Assembly: GCF_009389715.1 (NCBI RefSeq)
Contig: NC_052395.1
Coordinates: 20,808,493-20,872,492 of the forward strand
Length of the DNA stretch: 64,000 bases
Source of the DNA: Phoenix dactylifera
Taxonomy: Eukaryota; Streptophyta; Magnoliopsida; Arecales; Arecaceae
Direction: 5' to 3'
In this document: in pieces, positions 7,498 through 49,588 of the stretch
How the letters are laid out: the number at the start of each line of letters is the position of its first letter
Numbering within the stretch: the stretch's first letter is position 1
Notes under the pieces: model-generated
The model's input: the letters and a program-made list of their open reading frames with translations, nothing else
Told to the model about the DNA's origin: nothing
Database searches by the model: none
Position numbers and translations under genes: made by a program

Positions 7498-7586
<89 letters not shown>
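7498..7586. repeat. (TA)n microsatellite, about 44 units
   Basis: A pure alternating TA tract of about 89 bp. It lies at the 3' end of the LINE fragment on the minus strand, where a poly(A) tail would be expected, so it may have grown from a TA-rich tail. Confidence 0.85.
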
Positions 7587-25826: not shown

Positions 25827-28448
25827 TGAAAGTGAATCCTAGGTTCTTTGGTGTTAAGCATGCTGATTTTTTTTTTAAAAAAAAAACATGGCTGAACCTG
25901 ATCGGGTTGCCTACGTACCCCTTCATAAGGGGATCAAGCCATACGTAGTTCTTTTTAAGTTTTAAAACGCAGCGGAAAAATCGAATCAAACAATTTAATT
26001 CATGCATGCTTACAAGATCAAATCTAGAAATCAGCACCTTAAGAACACATAGGATTATGTCGGAATCGTTTAAACAATTATGCTAAAACTTTCATGCATG
26101 ATTAACTATCAGATCTGAAACTTAAAAACTCTATTCCAATTAATCTCTGAATATCCATTGAATGGATTCTGGAGATATCTCCGTGAGGAGCCCCAAAAGA
26201 GGGTAAAACCTCGGGGAATCAGACCTAGATCTTGACACCATAATAAAAAATTAATGTAGGATTAATACCTTTTATGATGGATGAAACTTGTGGATCTGAT
26301 CCTCGACTTCGCAGCCACGCACACGAATGGCCTCTACGAGAAGTCCACGCGAAGTTCCTGAAGAGATCCAATCCTGCGGAAGTGCTAGCTTGCGCAGAAT
26401 TTCTTGAGGCTGAAATTTGATCTTCCCAACGCTATCAACTTTTGATCCGCCTTCTTGGAAGAACTTGGAGGAAAGGTTTAAAGGGATTGAAGAGGACTTA
26501 GATCTGATCTAAAGACTCTTATCAGGGACCCCTAAAACTAATGGCGCGATGGACTTAGAGGAGGAAGAAGTCAGCTAGATTGAATGCATAATTTTTTCAT
26601 GCATGAACTAGGGTTCCTCTCTTTTCTTTTCCCTTTTTTTCTTCTTCTTTTTCTCTCTTTTTTTCTTTGAATTCGACCACCAGCTAATGGAGGTCCTTTT
26701 ATTGTTGCTATCCCCTCTAACTTCATGCCAACCATCCCATATTTGTGGAGGATTTTGTGGGGTTTTGAATTTTGAATTCAAAATTCAAGTTCATGTGCCA
26801 TTACATGATGAAGCTTGATCTAATCTAAACCATTCATCATGTTGCCACTTTCCTCTTTCAATTTCGAAATTTCCATGCCCCCAATCAGATTAGAGGGTCA
26901 CGTGGTGATTTTGTGGTGATTAAATTCGAAATTCAACCTTAATTAGAAGTGAGATAAAGATAAGGATGACATATGCCATGAAGAGAGAGAATTTGATCTT
27001 ATCCAATTCTTTTCATGAATTTATCTCTCCATTTCGACCCATCTAATGATGAAAGAGGTCTCTGATGTTTCCAAGTGTCCTATGGCACCATTAAATAAAT
27101 TAAATTAAATTTTAATCATATTAAAAATCAATTTATGGTGCCATGCATGGATATGTAACAAGTGGATTTCAAGATCCGAACAGTTTCAGATCAAACCCAT
27201 TTAATTTAATTAAATCCTAACAATTAGAATGATCCAATTACCATGAGTTGATCCTAATCCAATTAGGTCAATCCCTAATTAAGCATAAATTTAATCTAAT
27301 TTAATTTGGTCAACCTAAGTCCTCTTGATTCAGACCTAATCCAATCAGGTCAAAAATCCTAATTGAGCCCAGAATTGAATCTAATTCAATTTGGCTCATC
27401 CTTAGTCTAATTACTCAATCCAATTGAGTTCATTAGCAATCTAATTACTAATTAATCCTCCGATAATTACTTTAATTATTTTATAAGATAATTTGCCAAT
27501 CGAATTGACCAAATTACCCCTGAATGATTCTTAATCATTCATCAGCCTTCTTGATCAATCAGGAATCTTCTATGCGTGTGACCTCATAGGTTCGAACCTA
27601 AGCCGGTAGTATAGGAACGACTTCATACACTAATCGATGTGACCATCTAGCAATGGTACCCGACGTCCGGATAGGCCGAATATATGCGAAGCAAATATTC
27701 TGGAATTCTGAACTATGGTTACTGTATAATTCAATCCCTTTGACTCCTAATGTCAGGATGACTTAGAGCTCACTGTCAACCCTATAATTAGTACATCCAT
27801 TATGTGATTAACTTTAGATATCCCGTGACTCCTCACTGAGATTACCCTGGCCAAGGTTTTGCTAAATTAATCACAAGACATTATCTCCTGTTTCCAGGAG
27901 GGGTCAATTCCATCTTAACTCACAACAGACTACGCAAGTACTTGACTGCACTCAGTGACCTTCCGTCACTGAATTAGAAATTCAGGTAGTCCGGTACCAA
28001 AGTACAGTGAGTTGCTTGCTAGTCACAGGTTGCGGTCTCAGGTCAGAGGGCCAAACTTATACCCATATCCACTCGGAACATCTCTCGACAGTAGAGCATT
28101 CCGGAATTGGTCACGTTCAGTGAAATGTACTCCTACACTTCACCTGTATGGCATACCAGTGTCTCCACACTCCTTGGTTAAGAGGACAACCAACGTATAT
28201 GTCACACAACGACCTAATCTCGATAATGTTGTCGTCCTAGTAACAACATATCATTTGGTCGCGAACAAGTTTAAGGACTCAAAGACAAATCCTCCTTTAT
28301 CATAACATAAGTCCTAAGGACTTCATCATATAAGAGTTCATTTGAAGATGTAAAATGATGAATAATGCCAAAAAATACTTTATTGATTTGTCAATTCATT
28401 TAATCATCAGCATGCTGACGATTGACATTTAGGATACAATTCCCAACA
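25827..28448 (-). repeat. 3' LTR of the copia element, 2,622 bp
   Basis: On the minus strand it begins TGTTGGGAATTGTATCC and ends CCTAGGATTCACTTTCA, i.e. TG...CA. It has many short AATTAGGTCAA/AATCTAATTCAA-like degenerate repeats in its 27.2-27.5 kb part. An open frame at 28,012-28,305 on the + strand is kept in both LTRs, but it looks incidental. Confidence 0.93.
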
Positions 28449-28460
28449 ACTCCCACTTAG
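28449..28460 (-). other. Polypurine tract of the copia element
   Basis: On the minus strand AAGTGGGAG lies directly upstream of the 3' LTR start, right after the pol stop codon region. This is the usual position and composition of the plus-strand primer. Confidence 0.75.
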
Positions 28461-28461
28461 C

Positions 28462-31400
28462 CTAAAGCCAATCGGCACAGTATCTAATACCCATCTTCGA
28501 CTTGTGTTCGTTGAACTCTTTGATGCCGAGGACTTTGGTAAATGGATCAGCCAGATTTTCTTTTGTGTCAATCTTCTGAAGATCAATATCACCTCATTCG
28601 ACGATCTCTCGAACCAAATGGTAGCGACGTAGAATATGCTTGGTCCGCTGATGTGCTTTGGGTTCTCTTGCTTGAGCTATTGCTCCAGTATTGTCACAAT
28701 ATATAGACACTGGACCATCAATGGAGGGTATCACTCCAAGCTCGGTGATGAACTTTCGCAACCATACAGCTTCCTTAGCGGCATCAGATGCTGCGATATA
28801 TTCTGCTTCACATGTAGAATCTGCCACTGTATGCTGCGTGGAACTCTTCCAGCAGATGGCCCCACCCTTAAGAGTAAAGATATATCCCGACACGCTCTTG
28901 CTATCATCTTGATCTGACTGAAAACTTGAGTCGGTATATCCCTCAAGTTTTAAGTCAGAATCACCGTAGACCAGCCACTGATCTTTAGTATTTCTCAAAT
29001 ACTTAAGGATGGTTTTTACAACCTTCCAGTGGTTGCTACCTGGATCAGACTGGTATCTGTTCACTACTCCTAGTGAGTATGCCACGTCTGGTCTAGTACA
29101 TGTCATGGCATACATTATAGATCTCACTGCCGAAGCATATGGAATTCTATCCATACTCTCTCTTTCTTGAGGGGTTGTCGGACAATCCCTTTTAGAGAGA
29201 TTAATTCCATGGCCCATCGAAAGATAGCCTTTCTTAGAATTAATCATACTGAACCTCTTCAGTATAGTATCAATGTATGTGGATTGGGATAATCTAAGCA
29301 ATCTTCTAGATCTATCTCTATAGATCTTCATCCCTAGGATGTAAGATGCTTCTCCCAAATCCTTCATGGCAAATTGAGATGATAGCCAAACTTTATTCCT
29401 TGTAATGCAGGAATGTTATTCCCGATTAAAAGAATGTCATCCACATACAAAACAAGAAATATGATAACTGAACCATTTGCCCATTTATAAATGCAAGGTT
29501 CCTCTTCATTCTTAATGAAGCCATATGATTTGATCATCTTATCAAATCGTATGTTCCAACTCCGTGAAGCTTGCTTTAATCCATAAATGAATTTTTGAAG
29601 CTTGCACACCTTAGACTCATCTGCAGATATAAAACCTTCAGGTTGCATCATATACACCTCCTCTTCTAAATCTCCATTTAGAAAAGCGGTTTTAACATCC
29701 ATCTGCCAGATCTCATAATCTAAGTGTGCTGCTATTGCAAGCATAATCCGAATGGATTTGAGCATTGCCACAGGAGAAAATGTCTCGTCATAGTCAATAC
29801 CATAACGTTGACGATATCCCTTGGCAATCAGACGGGCTTTATAAGTCTCTACTTTTCCGTCTGCGCCCCATTTTTTTTTGAAAATCCACTTACACCCTAT
29901 GGGTTTAATCCCTTCGGGTGCGTCAACTAATGTGCATACATCATTGACCTTCATGGATTCCATTTCGGATTGCATGGCTCCAAGCCATGCATCAGAGTCA
30001 TGCCTCTGCATAGCATCCATATAGGTGATCAGATCCTCATCATTTTCATCAAGTTCGACAGGATCCCCATCCCGGACCAAGAAACCGTAGTATCTGTCCG
30101 GCTGACGTGGTACTCTACCTGATCGCCTTAATGGTGCATCTAAGATGGGTTCTGGATCTGATCTAATCAAATCCGACTCAATTGGTTTAGTGGATGGTGT
30201 CGGATCTTCTACATGTTGAACTTCCCTAAGCTCAACATTAGAGCTTTTAGTTCCTTCACTAAGGAATTCTTTCTCTAAGAAAACAGCTCTATTACTTACG
30301 AACAATTTTTGTTCTTCAGCAAAGTAGAAGTAATATCCTTTAGTTTCTTTAGGATAACCAATAAAGAAACATCTGTCAGACTTGGGTTCAAGTTTGTCTG
30401 TTTTCAAACGTTTGACATATGCCGGACACCCCCAAACCCTAAGGTGAGAGAGCATTGGCTTACGTCCAGTCCACATCTCATGTGGTGTTTTATTTACAGA
30501 CTTACTTAGAACCTTATTTAGAATGTAGCAGGCCGACTCAAGTGCATATCCCCAAAAGGATATGGGCAGACTCGCAAACCCCATCATGGATCGAACCATG
30601 TCTAACAGAGTTCGATTTCTTCTTTCTGATACACCATTATACTGTGGTGTACCAGGAGGAGTCCATTGGGAGAGAATCCCATTCTCTCCTAAATATGTCA
30701 AAAACTCATTGGAAAGGTATTCGCCTCCTCGATCTGATCGAAGAGTTTTAATACTCTTTCCAGTTTGTTTTTCTACTTCATTACGATACAATTTGAACAT
30801 TTCAAATGCTTCAGATTTATGTCTCATTAAATAGACATAACCATACCTAGAAAGGTCGTCTGTAAACGTAATGAAATATGAATACCCACCTCTAGCATCT
30901 GTGCTCATTGGCCCACATACATCAGAATGTACAAGGATCAATAAATCACTGGCTCGTTCACCTTTTCCGATAAAAGGTGATTTGGTCATCTTACCAAGAA
31001 GACATGACTCACAGGTTGTCAATGATTCACAATCATTAACATTGAGGATTCCCTCTTTACTTAACATGTTCATCCTGTTCTTGTTAATATGACCTAGCCT
31101 ATGATACCAAAGGTAGACATCCGTGATATTATCTATTCTAGGATGCTTACTTGACGTGTACATTACTTTAACAGGTTGTGATAACAAGTAGATGCCATTG
31201 CTCAATTGTCCATTCATTACAGTAACACCATTCATAATGATATCACAAGAATATTTCTTTAATGAAATTTCATAACCGTTCATGGCCAAAAGGCCTACGG
31301 AAATTACATTCAATAAGAATGTAGGACAATAGTGACAATCACTCAAGATAACTACATGAGAATTGAAAACAAGTTTGAGATTTCCTAAAGCTAGAACTGG

Positions 31401-31814
31401 AACAGATCTTCCATCTCCAACATTCAGGAATCTCTCGCTGTTTTCAAATCTCTCATTGACCTGAAGTCCTTGCAACGAATTGCATATATTAAACGGACTT
31501 CTAGTATCTAATACCCAGGTTGAATTATCACATATAGAGATACAAGGTGTTATCATATAAATACCTTGATCAGCAACTGATTGCCCTTTTCTCTTGCTTA
31601 GCCTGTTCGGGTCAAGTGAGGTAAGGTACTGAGGATAATTTCTCTTCCAATACCCCTGCTTCTTACAATAGAAGCATTCTGCCTGACTTTGGTCATCCTT
31701 AATCCTTTTGGTCTGACTATGCTGAGTTTTCAACTTTCTATACCAATTATTGAAGTTGGGACCAGTCAACTTGTCATTATCCAATAATGAGCGAAGTGAC
31801 AAACTTGTGGCCAT
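28462..31814 (-). pseudogene. Copia gag-pol remnant with gag deletion, frameshift and nonsense codon
   Basis: ATG at 31814. The first 29 residues are a typical copia gag start (LTGPNFNNWYRKLK), then the frame jumps to the zinc knuckle, so most of Gag is deleted. In the knuckle two ligands are changed (Tyr at residues 55 and 60, where His and Cys are usual). The protease has DTR where DTG is required (residues 103-105). The GAG-pre-integrase, integrase (HSDVCGPM, SDRGGEYL, PQYNGVSER) and reverse transcriptase (LVLYVDDILL) look normal. A one-base length change near 29,390 shifts the frame after the RT, and RNase H (SDQDDSKSVSG, AEYIAAS, IYCDNTGA) continues at 29367. A TGA at 28594-28596 cuts the last 44 residues, probably from a CpG transition. 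No autonomous activity is expected. Confidence 0.93.
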
Positions 31815-31979
31815 TTCTACATAAAAGAAAATTTGGCTATTAGTATATGAATTGACTAAACACAGTAGACTTGGACTTTAGTCTAAAGATACTCCCACTA
31901 TTTTATACAAATTGGTAGCCTCTACCTCCAATTCGAAAAATTACTCCTAATTCTTTAGTGGGCACTAGAACCCAATAGA

Positions 31980-32290
31980 TCGCATATAGGCCCGAGTGTG
32001 GCTCGGCTAACCCATATGCACCTATTGGTAGGTTCTAAACCAGTTGCTTCACCAAGCAACTTCTAGTGATAATTTTGTCCTAGGTTCTTCGGCAGGCGTG
32101 TGGCGCCTCCACCGAATACCCTAGTCAGGTCCAACCATTAAATGATAGGGTTAAGTCTAATCAACTAATAGACGACTAAGCCCGAGTGTGGCTCGGCTCA
32201 CCTGACCGCCTATTGAAGGTACACTTAACTCATCATATATTGAATGACAATTCCAATGCTTGATAAGTACCAGGCGTGTCGCGCCTCCAA
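31980..32290 (-). other. Copia leader: alternating conserved-loop hairpins
   Basis: Between PBS and gag lie four short hairpins about 90-100 bp apart. In + strand notation they are CCGAG-TGTGG-CTCGG (about 31,992), AGGCG-TGTGG-CGCCT (32,094), CCGAG-TGTGG-CTCGG (32,182) and AGGCG-TGTCG-CGCCT (32,272). The 32,094 hairpin has an added outer stem TTCGG/CCGAA (32,088-32,116). In RNA sense the loop is CCACA or CGACA. The repeat unit of about 180 bp is otherwise diverged, so the stems look constrained. Role unknown; packaging, dimerisation or translation control are possible. Confidence 0.65.
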
Positions 32291-33520
32291 TAATTATCAA
32301 AATATTGGACCCATTATCACCCAACTTAATGGGAGGCTATGACCTAGTTATCCCCATAATCATTTCATTTTAAGGACCTAATAATTTTAGAGGATTTCTT
32401 AATTAGGATAGATAAGAAGATCCGGTTAGTCTAATTTCTCCCACTGACTTCACCAAATCAGATTAGACTCAAACCGGTTAAGGAGGCACCTAAATCAGTC
32501 AAACTGATTTTCCTTATAGGCATGGGCTAACTCGAATCATTAAGTGATCCAATCAAAATGTAATTGACCATGTCGGCCAGGTAAGTAAGATCGGTGGAAG
32601 GGATATGCCATTAACTCGACAAAGACGAATCAGTGCGAGTAGCTCCCAATTAAAAACCACCGATCAAAACTGCCAAACTTACCTTAGACACCGACTGGTT
32701 AATTAATTTCGATTTGATTACTCAAATGACTCGGGCTACACCTCTGAGCCGAAATCAAGTTCCATCTTGGTCTAATCAAAGACATAGACTTGATCCATCT
32801 ACAACTATTGTAAATTGACCTAGAATTTTCTTGACCTAATCTAATTACTACTTAATTAGATTCGATCAATTAATTCTATTTGTCCATATATGATTCTAAC
32901 CTTAGGTCTAACCCAATCCTAGAAACTTGATTCAAGCTAACCCATATGCCCAAATAATTATGCAATGTCAATTAATTGAGTTACAATTCTATTTCATAAT
33001 ACTTAATTCTCAATTAAGTTTAGACTTATGAAAGTTTTGATCATTGCATATTTCTTTTTAATTACATATTAATTACAATCTTTCAGTTCTTAAAACATAT
33101 TTTCAGATCTGAGTTTTTGTAATTAATCACATATAATCAGATTTAATTCATGTATAAATCATTATATTTAATGTTCATGCATCACATATACATAACAACA
33201 TGAATTAATACAAACAACATACATCTTATGTATTTATATTTTTACTTTTATTTTCAGATCTGATTTGTTCATTAAAATCAGAGATCATATGAATCATAAA
33301 TTTTATTTAGATCTAATCTAAACAATATTATGATTTCAGATTTATTTATGTTACAAATCTTAACACAAACATGCATCATATGCATTCAAAATTTCAGATC
33401 TAGTTAATCATGCATAATCAGCAATTAAATCAATCATAAAAAGTACTTTAGATCTAATCTAAGCATGCTCATGATTTCAGATTTAATTACAAAAATTAAA
33501 ACATAAAAGTTTAAACATGA

Positions 33521-33537
33521 ACCTGGCTCTGACACCA
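33521..33537 (-). other. Primer binding site, initiator Met-tRNA type
   Basis: On the minus strand TGGTGTCAGAGCCAGG starts one base after the 5' LTR. It matches the 3' end complement of plant initiator tRNA-Met (TGGTATCAGAGC) with a single A-to-G change. Confidence 0.85.
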
Positions 33538-33538
33538 C

Positions 33539-36019
33539 TGAAAGTGAATCCTAGGTTCTTTAGTGTTAAGCATGCTGATTTTTTTTTTTAAAAAAAAAGC
33601 ATGGCTGAACCTGATCGGGTTGCCTACGTACCCCTTCATAAGGGGGATCAAGCCATACGTAGTTTTTTTTAAGTTTTAAAACGCAGCGAAAAAATCGAAT
33701 CAAATAATTTAATTCATGCATGCTTACAAGATCAAATCTAGAAATCAGCATCTTAAGAACACATAGAATTATGCCGGAATCGTTTAAACAATTATGCTAA
33801 AACTTTCATGCATGATTAACTATCAGATCTGAAACTTAAAAACTCTATTCCAATTAATCTTCGAATATCCATTGAATGGATTCTGGAGATATCTCCGTGA
33901 GGAGCCCCAAAAGAGAGTAAAACCTCGGGGAATCGGACCTAGATCTTGACACCATAATAAAAGATTAATGTAGGATTAATACCTTTTATGATGGATGAAA
34001 CTTGTGGATCTGATCCTCGACTTCGCAGTCATGCACACGAATGGCCTCTACGAGAAGTTCACGCGAAGTTCCTGAAGAGATCCAATCCTGCGGAAGTGCT
34101 AGCTTACGCAGAATTTCTTGAGGCTGAAATTTGATCTTCCCAATGCTATCAACTTTTGATCCGCCTTCTTGGAAGAACTTGGACAAAGGGTTTAAAGGGA
34201 TTGAAGAGGACTTAGATCTGATCTAAAGACTCTTATCAGGAACCCCTAAAACTAATGGCGCGATGGACTTAGAGGAGGAAGAAGTCAGCTAGATTGAATG
34301 CAGAATTTTTTCATGCATGAACTAGGGTTCCTCTATTTTCTTTTCCCTTTTTTTCTTCTTCTTTTTCTCTCTTTTTTTCTTTGAATTCGACCACCAGCTA
34401 ATGGAGGTCCTTTTATTGTTGCTATCCCCTCTAACTTCATGCCAACCATCCCATATTTGTGGAGGATTTTGTGGGATTTTGAATTTTGAATTCACGATTC
34501 AAGTTCATGTGCCATTACATGATAAAGCTTGATCTAATCTAAACCATTCATCATGTTGCCACTTTCCTCTTTCAATTTCGAAATTCCCATGCCCCCAATC
34601 AGATTAGAGGGTCACGTGGTGATTTTGTGGTGATTAAATTCGAAATTCAACCTTAATTAGAAGTGAGATAAAGATAAGGATGACATATGCCATGAAGAGA
34701 GAGAATTTGATCTTATCCAATTCTTTTCATGAATTTATCTCTCCATTTCGACCCATCTAATGATGAAAGAGGTCTCTGATGTTGCCAAGTGTCCCATGGC
34801 ACCATTAAATAAATTAAATTAATTTTTAATCATATTAAAAATCAATTTATGGTGCCATGCATGGATATGTGACAAGTGGATTTCAAGATCCAAACAGTTT
34901 CAGATCAAACCCATTTAATTTAATTAAATCCTAACAATTAGAATGATCCAATTACCATGAGTTGATCCTAATCCAATTAGGTCAATCCCTAATTAAGCAC
35001 AAATTTAATCTAATTTAATTTGGTCAACCTAAGTCCTCTTGATTCAGACCTAATCCAATCAGGTCAAAAATCCTGATTGAGCCCAGAATTGAATCTAATT
35101 CAATTTGGCTCATCCTTAGTCTAATTACTCAATCCAATTGAGTTCATTAGCAATCTAATTACTAATTAATCCTCCGATAATTATTTTAATTATTTTATAA
35201 GATAATTTGCCAATCGAATTGACCAAATTACCCATGAATGATTCTTAATCATTCATCAGCCTTTTTGATCAATCAGGAATCTTCTATGCGTGTGACCTCA
35301 TAGGTTCGAACCTAAGCCGGTAGTATAGGAATGACTTCATACACTAATCGATGTGACCATCTAGCAATGGTACCCGACGTCCGGATAGGCCGAATATATG
35401 CGAAGCAAATATTCTGGAATCCTGAACTATGGTTACTGTATAATTCAATCCCTTTGACTCCTAATGCCAGGATGACTTAGAGCTCACTGTCAACCCTATA
35501 ATTAGTACATCCATTATGTGATTAACTTTAGTTATCCCGTGACTCCTCACTGAGATTACCCTGGCCAAGGTTTTGCTAAATTAATCACAAGACATTATCT
35601 CCTGTTTCCAGGAGGGGTCAATTCCATCTTAACTCACAACTGACTACGCAAGTACTTGACTGCACTCAGTGACCTTCCGTCACTGAATTAGAAATTCAGG
35701 TAGTCTGGTACCAAAGTACAGTGAGTTGCTTGCTAGTCACAGGTTGCGGTCTCAGGTCAGAGGGCCAAACTTATACCCATATCTACTCGAAACATCTCTC
35801 GACAGTAGAGCATTCCGGAATTGGTCACGTTCAGTGAAATGTACTCCTACACTTCACCTGTATGGCATACCAGTGTCTCCACATTCCTTGGTTAAGAGGA
35901 CCACCAACGTATATGTCACACAACGACCTAATCTCGATAATGTTGTCGTCCTAGTAACAACATATCATTTGGTCGCGAACAAGTTTAAGGACTCAAAGAC
36001 AAATCCTCCTTTATCATAA
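33539..36019 (-). repeat. 5' LTR of the copia element, truncated (2,481 bp)
   Basis: It matches 25827-28305 nearly base for base, then stops at TTATCATAA and passes into a poly(A) run and unrelated AT-rich sequence. The missing 143 bp would include the start of the U3 region, so promoter function is doubtful. Confidence 0.93.
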
Positions 36020-40659: not shown

Positions 40660-41760
40660 GAATAGAAGGATAGGGTGAGTGGCACTCCTTTTGGGCACAT
40701 GCTAGGTCTACCGTATATAAAACAAAGTAGGCCTGTGTTGGACACATTGCTGTCCTTTTGGGATGATGTTGAGGAAGATTTTTGGTTTGGTAGGGTTCTG
40801 GTGCCTTTTGTAGGGAGTAATTTGGCACCAATCCTTGGTTTGAGTGCCACGGGTGATGAGGTGGAACTGCATAAAAAGAGGAGGGTTACGTCTGACCTTA
40901 TCACCCGATTTTTTGAGGGTGACCACAAAAAAGCCGATAGATATGCAATTAAAAATAGATTACAATACCTTGTTGGTAAGAGCAGATGACAAGATGTGGA
41001 GGATTTCATAAAATTATAAGTTCTATATCTCTTTGGGACTATCCTCTTCCCAACATTACACTACTATGTTCCTAAGGTATTATGTTTATATGTTGATGAT
41101 TTAGACCGCTTAGGTTCATATAGTTGGGGTCTTGTCGTTTTCTCTTTTCTTCGCCAGCAGATACCTAGTATAGCCGATAGTGTGAAAACAAGAAACATCA
41201 CAGGTGAAGGATCTGCTAGATACATGGACGGCTGCACGGTCGCTCTGGTGGTAAGCATCTTAATGTTTTTTTTAAAAAATTTATTGTTACGATATATATA
41301 TTTACTTGTAATTTGATGTTTACAATGGTTTTTGCCAGATATGGGCTGTTGAGCATGCGAACATCATTGTTGAAAGCCACCGGCCATCGTTCATGTATCA
41401 CGTCTTTTACGTTGGAACAACACCCCATTCCCTCGCAGGGTGGTCATGATTGCCGATGTTATGAAGAACCTAAAACGTTTTGAGGTTTGAATGTTAATTT
41501 CTTACGTTGCAAATATTTTAACTTGTTCCTAAAATCAAGTGTTCGCTCGCTTTAGGTTATTGAGAAGCTACAACCTAGAGAGGAGAAGTTGCACCTTCTC
41601 TCGCAAGGAAGGCCACAATTAGTTCGGCCAATAGAGATGCGAAGGGATGAAGAACTGCAACAATTTGTGCATGTTGGAACTCATGTATCCACATACTGTG
41701 ACATAGCATTTCCGAAACTTACAACCATTTTTGATTTGGCGCGCACCTTTCACTTGCCGA
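40660..41760 (+). pseudogene. PMD/DUF1985-like gene fragment of a decayed MULE
   Basis: Pieces read GTPFGHMLGLPY, LLSFWDDVEEDFWFG and ILGLSATGDEVEL up to a stop at 40987, then DFIKL-stop-VLYLFGTILFP and DLDRLGSYSWGLVVFSFL to a donor at 41251. They continue after an acceptor at 41338 with IWAVEH, then a frameshift, and after another acceptor at 41555 with VIEKLQPREEKLHLL. The pattern (FWD..., ILGL..., LFPT..., Y.WG..., IW..EH) is that of the plant mobile domain/DUF1985 type N-terminal region often linked to Ulp1 proteases in MULEs. At least two stops and one frameshift make it a pseudogene. The exact domain name is uncertain. Confidence 0.5.
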
Positions 41761-42807: not shown

Positions 42808-43392
42808 CTAAGCTCTCTTTCTACCTGACTTCAGTCCGTACATTGACCAAAATCTATCAAACGCAATGCAGCCCGAATTTAATAGAATACTCCCTGCAAC
42901 CCAGCTCTTGTATAAAGAAATATCTTTGAATTCTTTCTGCAATGGTCTCGAGCTACCTCGTATAAGTGTCTCTGCAAATATAAGCATGTATGCCCCGCAG
43001 TCGACACTATCAGCCTTTTGTTGTGCACATTGTCGAATTTCACGATATGCTAATTCAGGGATACGGTATCCGACATAGTCGTTTAGCCACGTTCGCACAA
43101 AAGATGCCTGCAATAATATGAAGAATACAAAATTTTTAGAAGAAACCTGTAATAAAAAAAAAATCAGTAATATTATATTGTACAAGTGATACCAACATAT
43201 CTAACAGCGTCGTCCGCAACGTTGAAACCCCACAAGGAGTTGTAGCAATCGAAACGCTGCTCCTTCAAGTCTAGAGAAAGTAGATACCAATGTCATCCCA
43301 TATTCATCGGAATTAATAGATATCTACACTTTTCAAGATCGGTAACACTGAATTCCCGTAGCCATATTTGAAGACTAGGGTGCAATGACTCT
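42808..43392 (-). pseudogene. Ulp1/C48-type SUMO protease pseudogene fragment
   Basis: Exon A (about 43392-43197) reads LHPSLQIWLREFSVTD and YLLIPMNMG, a TGA stop, then HWYLLSLDLKEQRFDCYNSL. Exon B (43110-42808) reads ASFVRTWLNDYVGYRIPEL, then QQKADSVDCGAYMLIFAETL, and ends GRKRA. In C48 peptidases the catalytic triad is His (here in HWYL), Asp (RFDCYNS) and Cys (DCGAY), with the oxyanion Gln before it (QQK); all four are visible. The stop sits right before the catalytic His, so the copy is dead. GT-AG boundaries flank a 86-bp intron. The element is separate from the intact MULE to its right, since the target duplication of that MULE lies at 43,691. Confidence 0.75.
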
Positions 43393-43947
43393 ACGATTTT
43401 TTTCGTAACATCAATGGTTATCCCTAAATCCAACGGTAGATGCTAACGCGGGCTATTTTTTCCCTATGTTTCCGCTTCAAACGCTCTCCGTTTTAAGATC
43501 TTCGGTAACATGGGGGCACTTACGGTAACCTGGGGACACTTTCGGTACTGTATTTTAACGAAAACAGTAAATCAGGGACCGGAATTTAGAGAACCAGTTA
43601 GTCGTGGACCGGAAGTGTTAGTTTTGGTCAACAGGGAACAGTGGAGTCTTTAGAGGGATGGGAAAGTAATTTCCCAAATTTTTTCTTCAATATTTTCATG
43701 GGGGGTTCTATATACACCCCCCCTATTGCTAAGGACACCCCCCAAAAATCAAAAAAAAAAAACCCAAACTAACCTTTAGTGTAATTACCATATTGCCCTT
43801 GAAATTTTCTCAGTACACCCCCCCTTCCTCCTCCTCCGTTTCGTTTTGAAAAGAAAAAAAAAACACCCCTCAAACCCCCCTTAAACCCCTCGATCCATTT
43901 ACATCGTTTAGGCGATCTTTGAAGGAGATTTAAGCCCCATTCGAAGC

Positions 43948-46900
43948 ATGGACAAGCAACTAGTGATTTGGGACGAAGAATCGGCCGCAAAGGTACGTGT
44001 TCCACCTTGTTTCGAAATTTTTTTTTTTTCACGGTTCGTGCTCCGTTCGGCACTGGATCGCCGAACAAAAGGCTTCTGTTCGGCTGAACAGTGCCGAACT
44101 TCTGTTCGGCTGCACAGTGCCGAACAGAAGGCTTCTGTCCGGCACTGTGCAGCCGAACAGAAGGGTTCTGTCCGGCTCTGTGCAGCCGAACAGAAGCCTT
44201 CTGTTCGGCACTGTGCAGCCGAACAGAAGGCTTCTGGTGCCAAATCGCGTGCCATGCTGAATTTTGTGCCGAACAGATCCTCTGATTCATTAATTCTTGG
44301 TGATAAATTATTTTATATGTAGGGCTATGCTACAACCGAATCGAGTATAATTGGATCAGAATTTGTACTGGATTACACAAGCGAATTTACAACTTACGAG
44401 GTATTATAATGTATTGTGCAATTTTGTATTAGTTTAGCGAGCTATTTTTACAACTGTGTACTTACATAAATTGTTTAATGTATAGATCTTCAAGAGTAGA
44501 GAGGACTTGTGTAATTGGTGTCGTGAAGCTGGGAGGCGAAATGGTTTTGTTGTTGTAATCAAATCATCCGATGCAGGTACCATTTCTAAGAAACCCAGAA
44601 TTACGTTAGGTTGTGAGAGGGGTGGGACGTACCGAACCAAAAAAGAAAAGCGAATAAAGACTGCCTGTGGGACAAAGAAGTGTGGATGCCCTTTTGCATT
44701 AAGAGGAAAAAAATTGGATACTGCGGATGATTGGATATTACTGGTCGTATGTGGAGTGCACAATCATCCCGCTGCAGAGAATCTGGAGGGGCACTCATAT
44801 GCAGGGAGATTATCTGAGCAGGAGACGGAATTGTTAGTGGATATGTCGAATAGTTTGGTTCGTCCAAAGGACATATTATCCACATTGAAGGAAAGAGATG
44901 CCCTCAATGTTACGACTATCAAGACTATCTACAATGTACGTCAACGGTTTAAGGTTGTAGAGAAAGCCGGGAGGTCTGAAATGCAACATCTATTAGGTAA
45001 ATTATCAGAGGCTAAATATATTGAGTGGCATAGAAATTGTACTAATACGGATGTTGTGCATGACTTATTTTGGGCACACCCTGGCAGCATTGATTTGTTC
45101 CGTGCATTTCCCCGTGTGTTGATAATGGATTGCACGTACAAGACGAATAGGTATCGTCTTCCGCTCTTAGAGATTGTGGGGGTGACATCTACTGACATGA
45201 CATTTTCAATTGCTTTTGTATACTTAAATTCTGAGCGGGAAGAAAGCTATACTTGGGCATTAGAGAGATTGCGCAGTGTCATAGCTGATGATGTTTTGCC
45301 TGAGTTGATTGTTACAGATAGAGACTTGGCTTTGATGAATGCAATTCATAGAGTATTTCCTACTGCTAGACATTTATTATGTAGATGGCATATTAGTAGG
45401 AATGTTTTGGCCAAGTGCAAAAAAATTTTCGAATTGAAGGAGAAATGGGATAAATTTATTATGAGTTGGAATGTACTAGTGCTGTCCTCCACGGAAGACG
45501 AGTATAATGATCGCTGGAGTGCACTGCAGAGAGAGTTCGGTACCTATCCAGATGCACTACAGTATGTGTCAGATACTTGGCTGAGCAAATACAAGGAAAG
45601 ATTTGTTGCGGCGTGGACGGATACATGCAGGCACTACGGAAATGTGACGACAAATAGGTATCACAAATAAAGACTCATTTAATTTTAATTTGCCTCAATT
45701 GTTATATCTAACTTTCATTTGTTTACTAGGGTCGAGAGTGCACATGCAAAGCTCAAAAAGCAGCTTGGATCAAGCCAAGGAAGTTTCGAGTCATCTTGGA
45801 CTAGAATACATGGATTGATTGAGTTGCAGCACAGCTCCGTTAAAGCCTCATTGGAGAAGAGTTTATTGGTAGTGCAGCACAACTTCAAGCCAGCTGAATT
45901 CAAAGAGTTGCGAGGTTTCATATCTATAAGTGCGTTAAATCATGTCCTCGCCCAATCGAAACGAGCCAATTCAGTTGGGTTTGATGATTCAAATTGTGGG
46001 AGCGCTATTCGACGCACACATGGTATACCATGTGCTCACCAGATTGCGCGGTACAGGGTGGAAGGTCGGCCCATTCCTCTCGACTGCATAGATCCTCATT
46101 GGAGGAAACTTGATATTGTGCCTACCCCCCCCCCCCCCCCCGTGCAGCCAATTCAGTTGAGTTGTGATGCAGAGTTAGATTTGATTGCGCTACGATTCAA
46201 GAAGTTAGATGGGGCTTCTCAATTGCAGATGATCAAGAAGTTACGAGAGATTGCAAGTCCAGATAGTACACCTCTTTTAGAGCCTGCAAAACGGAAGACC
46301 GGTTCACGTGGGCGCGCTTCAATGAAGGTTGATACGTCTACTCGACGTGACCCGTCTGCGTTTGAGTTGGTTCTATCTGGACAGGATAGTTATTCACCTG
46401 GTGTTGAGAAAGTTACCATCCGCAATCCATCTACTCAGATTCAAAAGAGGCGGCCCAAGCAAAAGGTAAGTACCAAATATTTATTTCCTTACAATAGGTA
46501 TCACAACGTCTACGGGACGGTCCGTGCCGTGCCGGTATGTGATGTGCCGATACGGGACATGTCGGGACGTGCCGTGCCGAGATGTGCCGATACGGGACAT
46601 GTCGGGACGTGCCGTGCCGAGATGTGCCGATACGGGACATGTCGGGACGTGCCGTGCCGAGATGTGCCGATACGGGATGTGCCGTGCCGAGATGTGCCGA
46701 TACGGGACATGTCGGTACGTGCCGTGCCGAGATGTGCCGATACGGGACATGTCGGGACGTGCCGTGCCGTGCCGGTACGGGATGTGCTGAGACGGATAAC
46801 TATTTGGATATTTCTGCCATTGTTACATATTTTCTATCATTTGATATTATTTGCAGGTTTTTCGTACTAGAGCCCAGTCACATACGCCCATTATCTATAT

Positions 46901-47600
46901 TGATGCTATTCCTTCTGCCTTGAGACCATACATCCAGCATATCAAGGATGTAAAAGCTGATGGGAATTGCGGATTTAGGGCAATAGCTGACTTACTGGGA
47001 TTTGGAGAAGATGACTGGGTGCGTGTTAGGAAGGATTTATTGCAAGAGTTGCAATGTCATTCGGACCACTATCGCACATTATATGGTGTGGAAGGGACGA
47101 TTGCTGAGATCACTCATGCATTATCATATTATGATGATTGTCCACCATATGACAGATGGATGACTATGCCGGACATGGGTCATCTTATAGCATCCTGCTA
47201 TAATGTTGTCCTATACCATCTCTCGTTGCAACAATGTCTGACCTTCCTACCTCTCCGTTCTGTGCCAGTACCTCTTCTATCCCGCAAAGATATCGCTATC
47301 GGATTCGTAAATGGAAATCATTTTGTTGAGGTACTACGTTCACAACACTTGCGAATATTTAATTTTACTTATTTAATTTTGCTTATTTATAATTTTGTAG
47401 CTATTAATATTTTCTTATTTCTAATTTTGAAGGTGTTCTTGTTGCCGGGACATCCCGTTCCGCCAGTAGCGACCAACTGGCGAAAATATCATCTTCCTTG
47501 TGCTACCGGATGGGAAAATTCATATGAAGCCCGGATTCAACAGTTCAAAGAGAGCATCTCACCTAATGTTATAATTAGCGAGACAGTAGAGTTAGATTGA
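43948..47600 (+). CDS. FAR1-like MULE transposase fused to an OTU cysteine protease, 6 exons
   Basis: Exons 43948-43992, 44323-44400, 44486-45657, 45730-46465, 46857-47330 and 47433-47600 join in frame across GT-AG introns into 890 residues without a stop. Residues about 42-140 are a FAR1-type zinc-binding domain (CNWCREAG, KCGCPFAL, VHNHP). Residues about 245-440 are the MULE DDE domain: D256 (LIMDCTYKTNRY), D319 (VTDRDLAL), a CRWH motif and E434 in TNRVESAH. A SWIM finger follows (NCGSAIRRTHGIPCAH); one usual Cys is Ser. After a Pro run coded by a C17 tract comes an OTU fold: D712 and C715 in ADGNCGFRA, and H832 in GNHFVEV. OTU proteins cleave ubiquitin chains; FAR1/MULE proteins bind and move DNA. 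Exon joins are my inference and should be tested. The 3' end (ETVELD) lies 48 residues after the OTU His. Confidence 0.85.
44040..44240 (+). repeat. Palindromic GTTCGGC/GCCGAAC minisatellite in intron 1
   Basis: About five alternating copies of CAGTGCCGAACAGAAGGCTT and its complement (CTTCTGTTCGGCACTG) fill most of the first intron. Adjacent units can fold back on each other. The motif CAGTGCCGAAC recurs near the right end at about 49,059. Confidence 0.8.
46541..46770 (+). repeat. Six-copy 40-bp tandem array in intron 4
   Basis: Units start at 46541, 46581, 46621, 46661, 46691 and 46731. Five are 40 bp and the fourth has lost 10 bp. Each reads GATGTGCCGATACGGGACAT then GTCGGGACGTGCCGTGCCGA. 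Units are nearly identical, so expansion is recent. The array sits between the transposase exons and the OTU exons. Confidence 0.9.
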
Positions 47601-47882
47601 TTGTTTATATATGTACAATTTTTGAAAGTTGTAAATTTTTTTGGGCTCTTAGAGTCATGTACTGTGAAACTCCATCATCAATATAAATCAAAAAATATCT
47701 GTCTTCGCATTGTTAGATTGATTGTTATATGCACTGTTATATTTGTGTAAAATAGAACGGGCCAGGCTTTACAAAGATTAGACGTAAATGTACCAAAAAT
47801 ATATATTTTTCATTAATATCAACAGTTTCAAATTACACAAAAAAAAAGTCGAAGCTACATAATCAAAATAAAGGCTCCATCA
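47601..47882. other. Spacer between convergent MULE genes
   Basis: AT-rich 280-bp spacer with AATAAA-like signals for both strands (for example ATCAATATAAATC near 47,680 and CAAAATAAAGGC near 47,865). It probably holds both 3' ends. Confidence 0.5.
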
Positions 47883-48416
47883 TCAATCCCTATGACGCCG
47901 TCGTCGACGCGTGTACTGCTGTACGTCCGAATGAGAGGGTGCTGGATCCGAATGAGAGGGTGCTGTACTCGGGCCAGGCTCATCACCCAGAAGTAACTGA
48001 TGCATCTGACAAATAGCATGAAATAGGTGCCCGGCACCTAGTGACGTAGCCTCTGAGGGACCCATCCGTACAATGTCGGTACTGATACCGAGTGCATCTG
48101 CAATACGCCGCCGGTGCATGTCAGCATCATCATGACCTCCCCTAGCTCCAGAATGAGTACTCGAGCGCAGATGAGGAGGCTGAACTGCAACGTGCGTGAT
48201 ACGGAGATACCACTCCATGTATCCCGGTACGCTGTCTGATGGCCGGGTAACTGGGTGGCTCCTGCTCGCCTGGCTCAGCACGTGGTCCTCCCACCGCTCC
48301 CAAAGCTGATCCATATAGGAGTAATGTATCCGGAGCAGGCTCGGGAGAAGCAATCCTAGCACGACGTCTCCTAGCTGACGCCGTAGGTCTAACTCTGGAG
48401 GGACCGGGATCCATGT
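47883..48416 (-). pseudogene. Plant mobile domain (PMD) protein, terminal exon only
   Basis: After a good acceptor (CTATATTTTCAG), 177 codons run open to a TGA at 47885-47883. The start reads TWIPVPPELDLRRQLGDVV, then YSYMDQLWERWEDHVL and SVPGYMEWYLRITHVAVQPP, the usual closing blocks of PMD proteins (the MAIN/MAIL1-related family, which occurs in host genes and in MULEs). The tail is Ser/Pro-rich with ARRRRRHRD-like basic residues at the end. I found no upstream exons in 48.4-49.6 kb, so the N-terminal PMD core appears lost. An ATG at 48414 in another frame would give an unrelated 90-residue frame, judged spurious. It is convergent to the transposase-OTU gene. Confidence 0.6.
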
Positions 48417-49533
48417 CTGAAAATATAGAAATTCAATGTTAGACTATATCAAAGAAAATAATTCAATTGCATACATAAATGATAAATGATAAAACAAGCC
48501 AAAAAAGAAACAAGTTACTTCTTGGAATCTACATGATTGGGTTTTGTGATAAATAATTCAATGTTACTTCAATTGCATACATAAATGATAATTCAAAAGT
48601 ATACGACTCGTAAACTCAAGACATAACTCAATAATAGACTTTACCTAAAACTATGCCGCAGTTCTTAGTTTTTGTTTTTAGTTTTTGTTCGTTAACTAAT
48701 GTTGTGGTTTTATTATTTGATAGAGCATTTGATATGAGATAATCATTCCAAGATCAAGAATGACATCGATGAAGGTAACAAGATCATCATATTTGGATGC
48801 ACCATGTTAATGCTATATGATAATGATTCTAAATTATCCCTACTTCTCAAATTACTATCTAATCTAGTAATGAAAAACTTGTCCTTGATGTTGGGTATCC
48901 AATTCACCCTAAGGACGTGATCTAGGCTAAAATTTGGGAATAAAAATAATCCTTAGTCTAGCAACAGAAAAAAAAAAAAATTTGGATTCGGCCCCATGGG
49001 GACCAAGATACATTGGGTCGGCCCCATGGGGCCGAACCGAAGGCACTGGTTCAAAGAACCAGTGCCGAACGATTTGGGGAGGCGGGGGGGGGGAGCTACC
49101 TCGAGGTGGTCGTGGAGGCGCCGGCGAGGTGCTCGTTGCTCGAGAGATGGCCGGGGAGGTGGTTCCAGGAGAAGCCGGCGAGGTGGTCGGAGATCGGGAG
49201 AATGCCGGCGACGAGAGGGAGAAGGGAGAACGGGGGGGTTTTGGGCGTTGGCGAGGTGCTTTGGGCGGAACAGTTCAAAGGGAGACGGAGGGGGTTTGGC
49301 CGCCGGCGAGGTGCTTGAGGCGAGGTTTTTTGGGCGGAAGGGAGAAGCCGGCGGGTGTTTTGGAGGGGAAGAGCGGGGTGGGGGGGGTTTGGGGGGTGTA
49401 GAGAGCAATTTAGGTGAGGGGGTGGGGAGGGTGGGGGGTAATTTAGAAATTTTTAATTTTTTAGGGGTGTCCTTAGCAAATGGGGGGGGGGGGGGGGGGG
49501 GTGTAGAGAGTATTTAATTTTTTTTTAATTTTT
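48417..49533. other. Right subterminal region of the MULE
   Basis: 48.4-48.95 kb is AT-rich and non-coding. From about 48,960 it is very G-rich, with repeats of CCGGCGAGGTG and GGCCCCATGGGG, an inverted CACTGGTTCAAAGAACCAGTG at 49,042-49,064, and a run of 20 G at 49,482-49,501. Open frames on both strands reflect composition, not coding. Confidence 0.5.
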
Positions 49534-49588
49534 GGGGGGGTGTCCTGAGCAATAGGGGGGGGTGTATATAGAACCACCCTATTTTCAT

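Follow-up and report, generated by a model that had tools for sequence, protein, structure and literature searches.

A young Mutator-like transposon family of date palm with a predicted FAR1-MULE-SWIM transposase carrying an OTU-like tail

Several described transposons combine a transposition protein with a ubiquitin- or SUMO-type protease, as far as the accessible parts of the source papers go. Ginger1 elements are multicopy, are bounded by terminal inverted repeats (TIRs) and encode a single protein in which a DDE transposase ends in an OTU (or Ulp1) protease, a tail that the authors suggested might activate DNA repair factors (PMC2836005). Helitrons and Helentrons encode a transposon protein with a deubiquitinase-type domain, either OTU or VTD; the VTD deubiquitinases of Helitrons show activity in vitro and have been suggested to stop proteasomal breakdown of transposition proteins, and the same 2022 paper describes transposon OTU domains, in the context of herpesviruses and Helitrons, as untested for activity (PMC9741609). 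Among plant Mutator-like elements (MULEs), capture of Ulp1 has been published for Kaonashi/KIU in the VANDAL group and for elements of melon, rice and grapevine (PMC13317346, PMC2528002), as an earlier sequence-only reading of the locus described below had noted for Kaonashi-type elements. MUDR, MUDRAVI2 and MULE-Solanaceae_1 in turn combine a SWIM-containing MULE transposase and a 9-bp target-site duplication (TSD) with a Plant Mobile Domain (PMD) gene on the opposite strand (PMC6446971). Here, we describe a transposase gene with an OTU-like tail that lies inside a TIR-bounded Mutator-like element at 43,700-49,579 of a window on Phoenix dactylifera (date palm) contig NC_052395.1, the window being the whole stretch analysed, 64,000 nucleotides in length. 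With moderate confidence, we read this element as a member of a young Mutator-like family whose FAR1-MULE-SWIM transposase carries an OTU-like protease tail that would remove ubiquitin (or a similar modifier), with an antisense PMD gene as its partner.

A Mutator-like element with a composite gene

The transposase gene is predicted to comprise six exons and five GT-AG introns (43,948-47,600), which join in frame into 890 residues without an internal stop. Both this structure and the positions of the DDE residues (D256, D319 and E434) and of the tail residues D712, C715 and H832 agree with the sequence-only reading. Its description of the gene as MULE-borne and FAR1-type is likewise borne out: Pfam matches MULE (PF10551) at E 3.8e-27 in the joined protein and at E 1.1e-27 in the exon-3 piece (44486-45655), the element has TIRs and a perfect 9-bp TSD, and FAR1 passes its cut-off of 28.1 bits in the exon-3 piece (29.4) and falls just short of it in the joined protein (27.9). 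Of the three domains that the same reading had proposed to seek with Pfam (MULE, SWIM and OTU), only the first is returned; the window protein matches neither SWIM nor the OTU family PF02338. A PDB search with the transposase yielded a single unrelated chain (E 0.87).

Twenty further copies were fetched for comparison; they form the head of the list of tail-exon matches, all have a 100% identical tail exon and are not a random sample. D256 and D319 are Asp, and E434 is Glu, in every projected sequence whose fetched stretch contains the exon; the stretches of L059 and L061 lack exon 3, and the Leu read there at 319 is meaningless. The SWIM-like motif of the window copy is C521-G-S523-x9-C533-A-H535, with Ser in place of the second Cys at 523. 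A CGC...CAH motif can be read in 15 of the 20 fetched copies; in the other five, the projected frame does not show it. The minisatellites in introns 1 and 4 accompany intron-length differences among copies, intron 1 spanning 237-370 bp where measurable and intron 4, where its borders are usable, 251-521 bp. Retention of intron 5 would keep the frame open and insert 34 residues shortly after the predicted catalytic His.

Among the 21 copies examined (the window and the 20 fetched), both TIR cores are present in eight, and both flanks in seven of those. All seven testable copies, the window included, have a perfect 9-bp TSD, scored as the best of 36 border-offset pairs per TIR pair, and all seven TSD sequences differ, which is the signature of Mutator-like transposition and of dispersed insertion. 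Of the features of MULE membership, a MULE DDE domain, a 9-bp TSD, and TIRs with dispersed copies are present.

Fuller copies (L048, L051 and L056) extend to 6.7-6.8 kb and have a PMD gene on the minus strand. Both L048 and L045 contain open reading frames (ORFs) that match PF10536, with E values between 2e-10 and 6e-33, the best reaching 2e-31 in L048 and 6e-33 in L045. The entire middle piece of the L048 PMD gene is matched in 17 of the 20 fetched copies (L048 included), which also match the remaining two pieces wholly or for the most part; L043 retains parts, and L042 and L053 have none. Judged from these ORFs, a fuller member is a pair of converging predicted genes, one for a FAR1-MULE-SWIM transposase with an OTU-like tail and the other, on the opposite strand, for a PMD protein that may act as a second helper protein. 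In the window, the core of the PMD gene has been lost through a deletion of 1,383 bp at 48333/48334 relative to L047, and only residues 76-216 of the last of the three L048 pieces are matched.

The family was surveyed across the 773-Mb, 2,391-contig genome assembly. The tail exon gave 172 first-look candidates, of which the best 150 were scored; 43 of these 150, the window included, are 100% identical over 158 amino acids. In pairwise comparisons of the 20 copies and the window, exon 3 diverges by 0.77% on average and the 300-base stretch following the stop by 2.33%. This is a young, high-copy family that has undergone a recent amplification burst. The MULE domain gave 452 first-look candidates, and for 92 of the 150 MULE matches listed, a listed tail exon follows on the same strand at a distance of 0.9-5.4 kb; the other 58 include other MULE-related gene loci and places without a tail among the matches listed. 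The eight best MULE matches are 22-28% identical to the window transposase and are probably host FAR1-related genes. No DGNC motif was found in their longest ORFs (1.5 kb searched on each side), and three of them (L003, L004 and L006) contain the string DGRCRY. The left end of the element (43700-43947) was also searched and gave 1,426 first-look candidates (40 scored), exceeding the figures for the MULE domain (452) and the tail exon (172); this excess hints at many tail-less, internally deleted or non-autonomous copies.

Homology and state of the tail

The tail in the window contains a D712-G-N-C715 loop followed downstream by N-H832-F, in the usual order of OTU proteases. D712, C715 and H832 are present in all 37 projected sequences, which were all found through the tail exon. 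When the tail was compared with PDB by phmmer at E values up to 10, four of the eight matches were OTU domains: 6dx5 (E 0.0074), OTUD5 twice (E 0.03) and OTUD1 (E 0.28). The first of these is named as an RNA-dependent RNA polymerase, and we take it to be a viral OTU. Exon 5 alone matched OTU chains at E 0.003-0.2, and a reversed-tail control matched two PDB chains, neither of them an OTU. Against a profile built from two host OTUs, the tail scored 10.9 bits and ranked at the top of 1,000 sequences, the best of 999 shuffles reaching 3.6 bits; 611 of the 1,000 were reported, and the aligned part was solely the stretch around DGNC. A genome search with codon-varied DGNCGFRA patterns hit one place, at a listed tail match, and a second pattern search hit nothing. 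PF02338 was matched at 13 places in the genome, none of them at tail places among the matches listed, and no relatives of the tail were found in viral contigs. The distance of the tail from PF02338 and from the host OTUs suggests, on sequence grounds, a long separate history rather than a fresh capture.

One frame runs to the end of the gene, giving 887-889 residues including DGNC, in seven of the 20 fetched copies, a fraction that reflects copies chosen by an identical tail exon and is not a genome-wide rate. One of these seven, L046, lacks the GT at the projected exon-4 donor. The family members exclude chance as the source of the fusion. The in-frame fusion put forward by the sequence-only reading therefore stands as a joined frame in several copies, and its OTU identity is reduced to a motif and weak homology. 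Read-through depends on a coding poly-C tract between the SWIM-like motif and the tail. Both anchors of this tract are found in 28 of 37 sequences (36 loci and the window), its length ranges from about C6 to C28 with interruptions in a few, and this variation puts the tail in frame in 12 of the 28 copies and out of frame in 16. Part of the length variation could derive from homopolymer errors in the assembly.

Outside the poly-C tract, the changes in exons 3-6 that are private to the window are K163N, a silent change at R224 and C523S. The last removes a SWIM zinc ligand, Cys523, which is encoded in all 20 compared copies. Because of C523S and the deleted core of the PMD gene, the window copy looks partly decayed, and it is probably an impaired or damaged member although its frame is open to the end. 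At six divergent tail loci, selected because their identity was low, small insertions, gaps or a stop occur; L063 differs by nine amino-acid and six silent codon changes, and the other five have zero or one amino-acid change outside gaps (in L064 this change is a stop).

Favoured and alternative readings of the tail

In the favoured reading, the FAR1 and SWIM zinc domains would bind the TIRs, and DNA cutting and joining would fall to the DDE core, yielding the 9-bp duplication. The tail would then act on the transposase itself or on proteins at the transposition site, stripping them of ubiquitin or a similar modifier; this could either lengthen the life of the transposase or make repair and evasion of silencing easier. 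By analogy, protection of the Helitron type and repair activation of the Ginger1 type would both fit the date palm tail. Several observations weigh against this reading. Although their tail exon is perfect, 13 of the 20 fetched copies fail to read through: six end early (described below) and seven break elsewhere, among them L039 and L042, whose fetched stretches lack exons or have them in the wrong order. The lack of a PF02338 match to the tail extends up to E 10, and Otubain (C65) stays below its threshold, at E 0.02 for exon 5 (14.8 bits against a cut-off of 24.3) and E 0.11 for the joined protein. Among the PDB matches, an unrelated undecaprenyl pyrophosphate synthase (E 0.17) outranks OTUD1, and the remaining three are alphavirus E2 chains (E 4-5). 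The OTU homology is mainly confined to about 60 residues around DGNC. The third catalytic residue of OTU proteases is Asp or Asn, usually two positions after the His; Asn occupies this position in the two host OTUs and Val834 in all 37 projected sequences, and Asp712 of the DGNC loop is presumably distinct from that residue. Single-sequence AlphaFold models are too poor to use, with a mean pLDDT of 46 for 46857-47597 (intron 5 read through) and 38 for 46887-47330 (most of exon 5). The ratios of amino-acid-changing to silent changes are near neutral in exon 3 (45/16), exon 4a (10/5) and exon 6 (12/4), where neutral ratios are near 2.6, and purifying selection is not apparent there; in exon 4b the ratio (8/7) is lower than the neutral value of 2.36. 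Exon 5 has zero amino-acid-changing and five silent changes, which is uninformative, as the lack of amino-acid changes follows from choosing copies by their best exon-5 protein match. Given the weak or absent profile matches, Val834 and the poor models, the tail is best named OTU-like rather than a proven OTU deubiquitinase, with deubiquitination as its predicted activity. The weak homology, the Val, the near-neutral exons and the frequent loss of the tail through poly-C frame changes would also suit a catalytically inactive passenger that the element captured, that persists only owing to the youth of the family and that serves at most as a docking surface. We regard this as rather unlikely, since the Cys, the His and the DGNC loop persist in every projected sequence and the long separate history suggested above argues against it.

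The remaining alternatives concern the structure of the gene and the target of the tail. A transposase ending after the SWIM-like motif, followed by an independent OTU-like gene, would accord with the minisatellite-bearing intron 4 that parts the two domains and with the six fetched copies (L041, L044, L045, L047, L049 and L050) that stop at residues 573-576, directly behind the poly-C tract. We nevertheless consider such a pair of genes very improbable, because a single frame crosses both parts in the seven read-through copies and the exon-5 frame opens only at 46,845, with no Met before DGNC. The nearest in-frame upstream Mets, 599 and 630, lie in exon 4, and the independent ATG for the OTU part that the sequence-only reading had named as a possible contradiction is accordingly missing from exon 5 ahead of the DGNC motif; an independent OTU-like gene starting in that exon is unlikely on this evidence. 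Alternatively, the tail and the PMD protein might act together on host chromatin (e.g. ubiquitinated H2A/H2B), lifting silencing rather than protecting the transposase. The presence of the PMD partner in 17 of the 20 fetched copies is consistent with this, as are the anti-silencing VANC proteins encoded by VANDAL-group MULEs, some with Ulp1, in the available part of the source (PMC13317346); we hold this reading to be improbable. Finally, a tail that acts as a deubiquitinase in cis might be subject to the poly-C tract as a mutable switch between a long, OTU-bearing and long-lived transposase and a short, tail-less one of about 575 residues, tuning the dose of the family; this elaboration strikes us as far-fetched, with only a slight chance of being correct.

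Locus features and relation to described transposons

Table 1. Features of the element and its genes in the window (positions are those of the window).
Feature	Position	Strand	Basis
Left TSD, 9 bp, TATTTTCAT	43691..43699	.	Perfect match to 49580-49588
Left TIR, ~60 bp	43700..43760	+	43700-43759 92% identical to reverse complement of 49518-49579
Exon 1, with the ATG of the transposase-OTU gene	43948..43992	+	GT donor, in-frame join
Minisatellite, 33 bp, intron 1	44060..44236	.	Repeat detection
Exon 2	44323..44400	+	AG/GT borders
Exon 3, FAR1 domain (DNA-binding) and the larger part of the MULE DDE core (D256, D319)	44486..45657	+	Pfam
Exon 4, E434, SWIM-like motif, Pro-rich linker, basic stretch	45730..46465	+	Translation
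Coding poly-C tract, C17, after the SWIM motif and before the OTU-like tail	46125..46141	+	Sequence
Minisatellite, 40 bp, intron 4	46541..46769	.	Repeat detection
Exon 5, predicted OTU-like domain, DGNCGFR (D712, C715), NHF (H832)	46857..47330	+	Motifs, phmmer
Intron 5, 102 bp, in frame, stop-free	47331..47432	+	ORF 46845-47600 open
Exon 6, C-terminus and stop	47433..47600	+	In-frame join
Remains of the antisense PMD gene (start and C-terminal end)	47883..48443	-	Match to L048 PMD pieces
Inner, second TIR-like copy close to the right end	49450..49488	-	Inverted-repeat search
Right TIR	49518..49579	-	Pairs with left TIR; 62 aligned bases, 92%
Right TSD, 9 bp, TATTTTCAT	49580..49588	.	Perfect match to 43691-43699

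To the left of the element and outside its TIRs, the window contains a Ulp1 (C48) protease fragment on the minus strand (42808-43200; E 0.0007, just under the cut-off) and a weak PMD/DUF1985-like fragment on the plus strand (41020-41316; E 0.023), which are probably the remains of another transposon. Two direct repeats of 2.48 kb (25827-28305 and 33539-36019), 97.9% alike, enclose long minus-strand ORFs of 837 and 273 amino acids that read as Copia gag-pol-like, making 25827-36019 a probable young long terminal repeat (LTR) retrotransposon. The 88 bp at 7498-7585 are identical to their own reverse complement and are probably a simple-repeat tract.

The sequence-only reading had presented the OTU fusion as far less discussed than Ulp1 capture. 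The combination is less new than that, given the OTU and Ulp1 tails of Ginger1 (PMC2836005) and the OTU domains of Helitrons (PMC9741609). Each of these systems nevertheless differs from the date palm family. Ginger1 has a Gypsy-integrase-type transposase and is known from animals (Hydra, Aplysia and pea aphid), whereas the date palm element is of the MULE/FAR1 type; integrase-family matches, the Ginger1 trait (H2C2 zinc finger, GPY/F), are absent from the Pfam table of the window protein, and the accessible part of the Ginger1 paper makes no mention of the PMD gene that the date palm family possesses (PMC2836005). The proteins of Helitrons and Helentrons are rolling-circle RepHel proteins rather than DDE transposases (PMC9741609). 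Ulp1-bearing MULEs likewise unite a plant MULE with a ubiquitin/SUMO-type cysteine protease, with Ulp1 (C48) in place of the OTU-like domain (PMC13317346, PMC2528002), and C48 was not matched in the date palm transposase or in four scanned pieces of the PMD gene. KIU is moreover one of three genes in non-TIR elements (PMC13317346), whereas the date palm tail is fused to the transposase of an element with TIRs. The survey of MULE clades nowhere uses the term OTU, and the available part of its clade table notes FAR1 for two oomycete elements (PMC6446971).

No report of a MULE-OTU fusion, including a FAR1-MULE-OTU protein with an antisense PMD gene, was found in searches of the open-licence literature. 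Plant proteins with both MULE and OTU domains are probably present in databases. The coexistence of many near-identical copies, read-through and tail-less alike, provides a direct route for testing whether a protease helps transposition, and the family is also suited to asking whether the target of such a protease is the transposase or chromatin. Unrelated classes of transposon (Ginger1, Helitrons, Ulp1-bearing MULEs and CACTAs, and the date palm family) each carry a ubiquitin/SUMO-type protease, in the last case a predicted one. The date palm combination of FAR1, MULE and an OTU-like tail varies arrangements already published: Ginger1 pairs a DDE transposase with OTU, and among MULEs both Ulp1 and an antisense PMD gene have been described.

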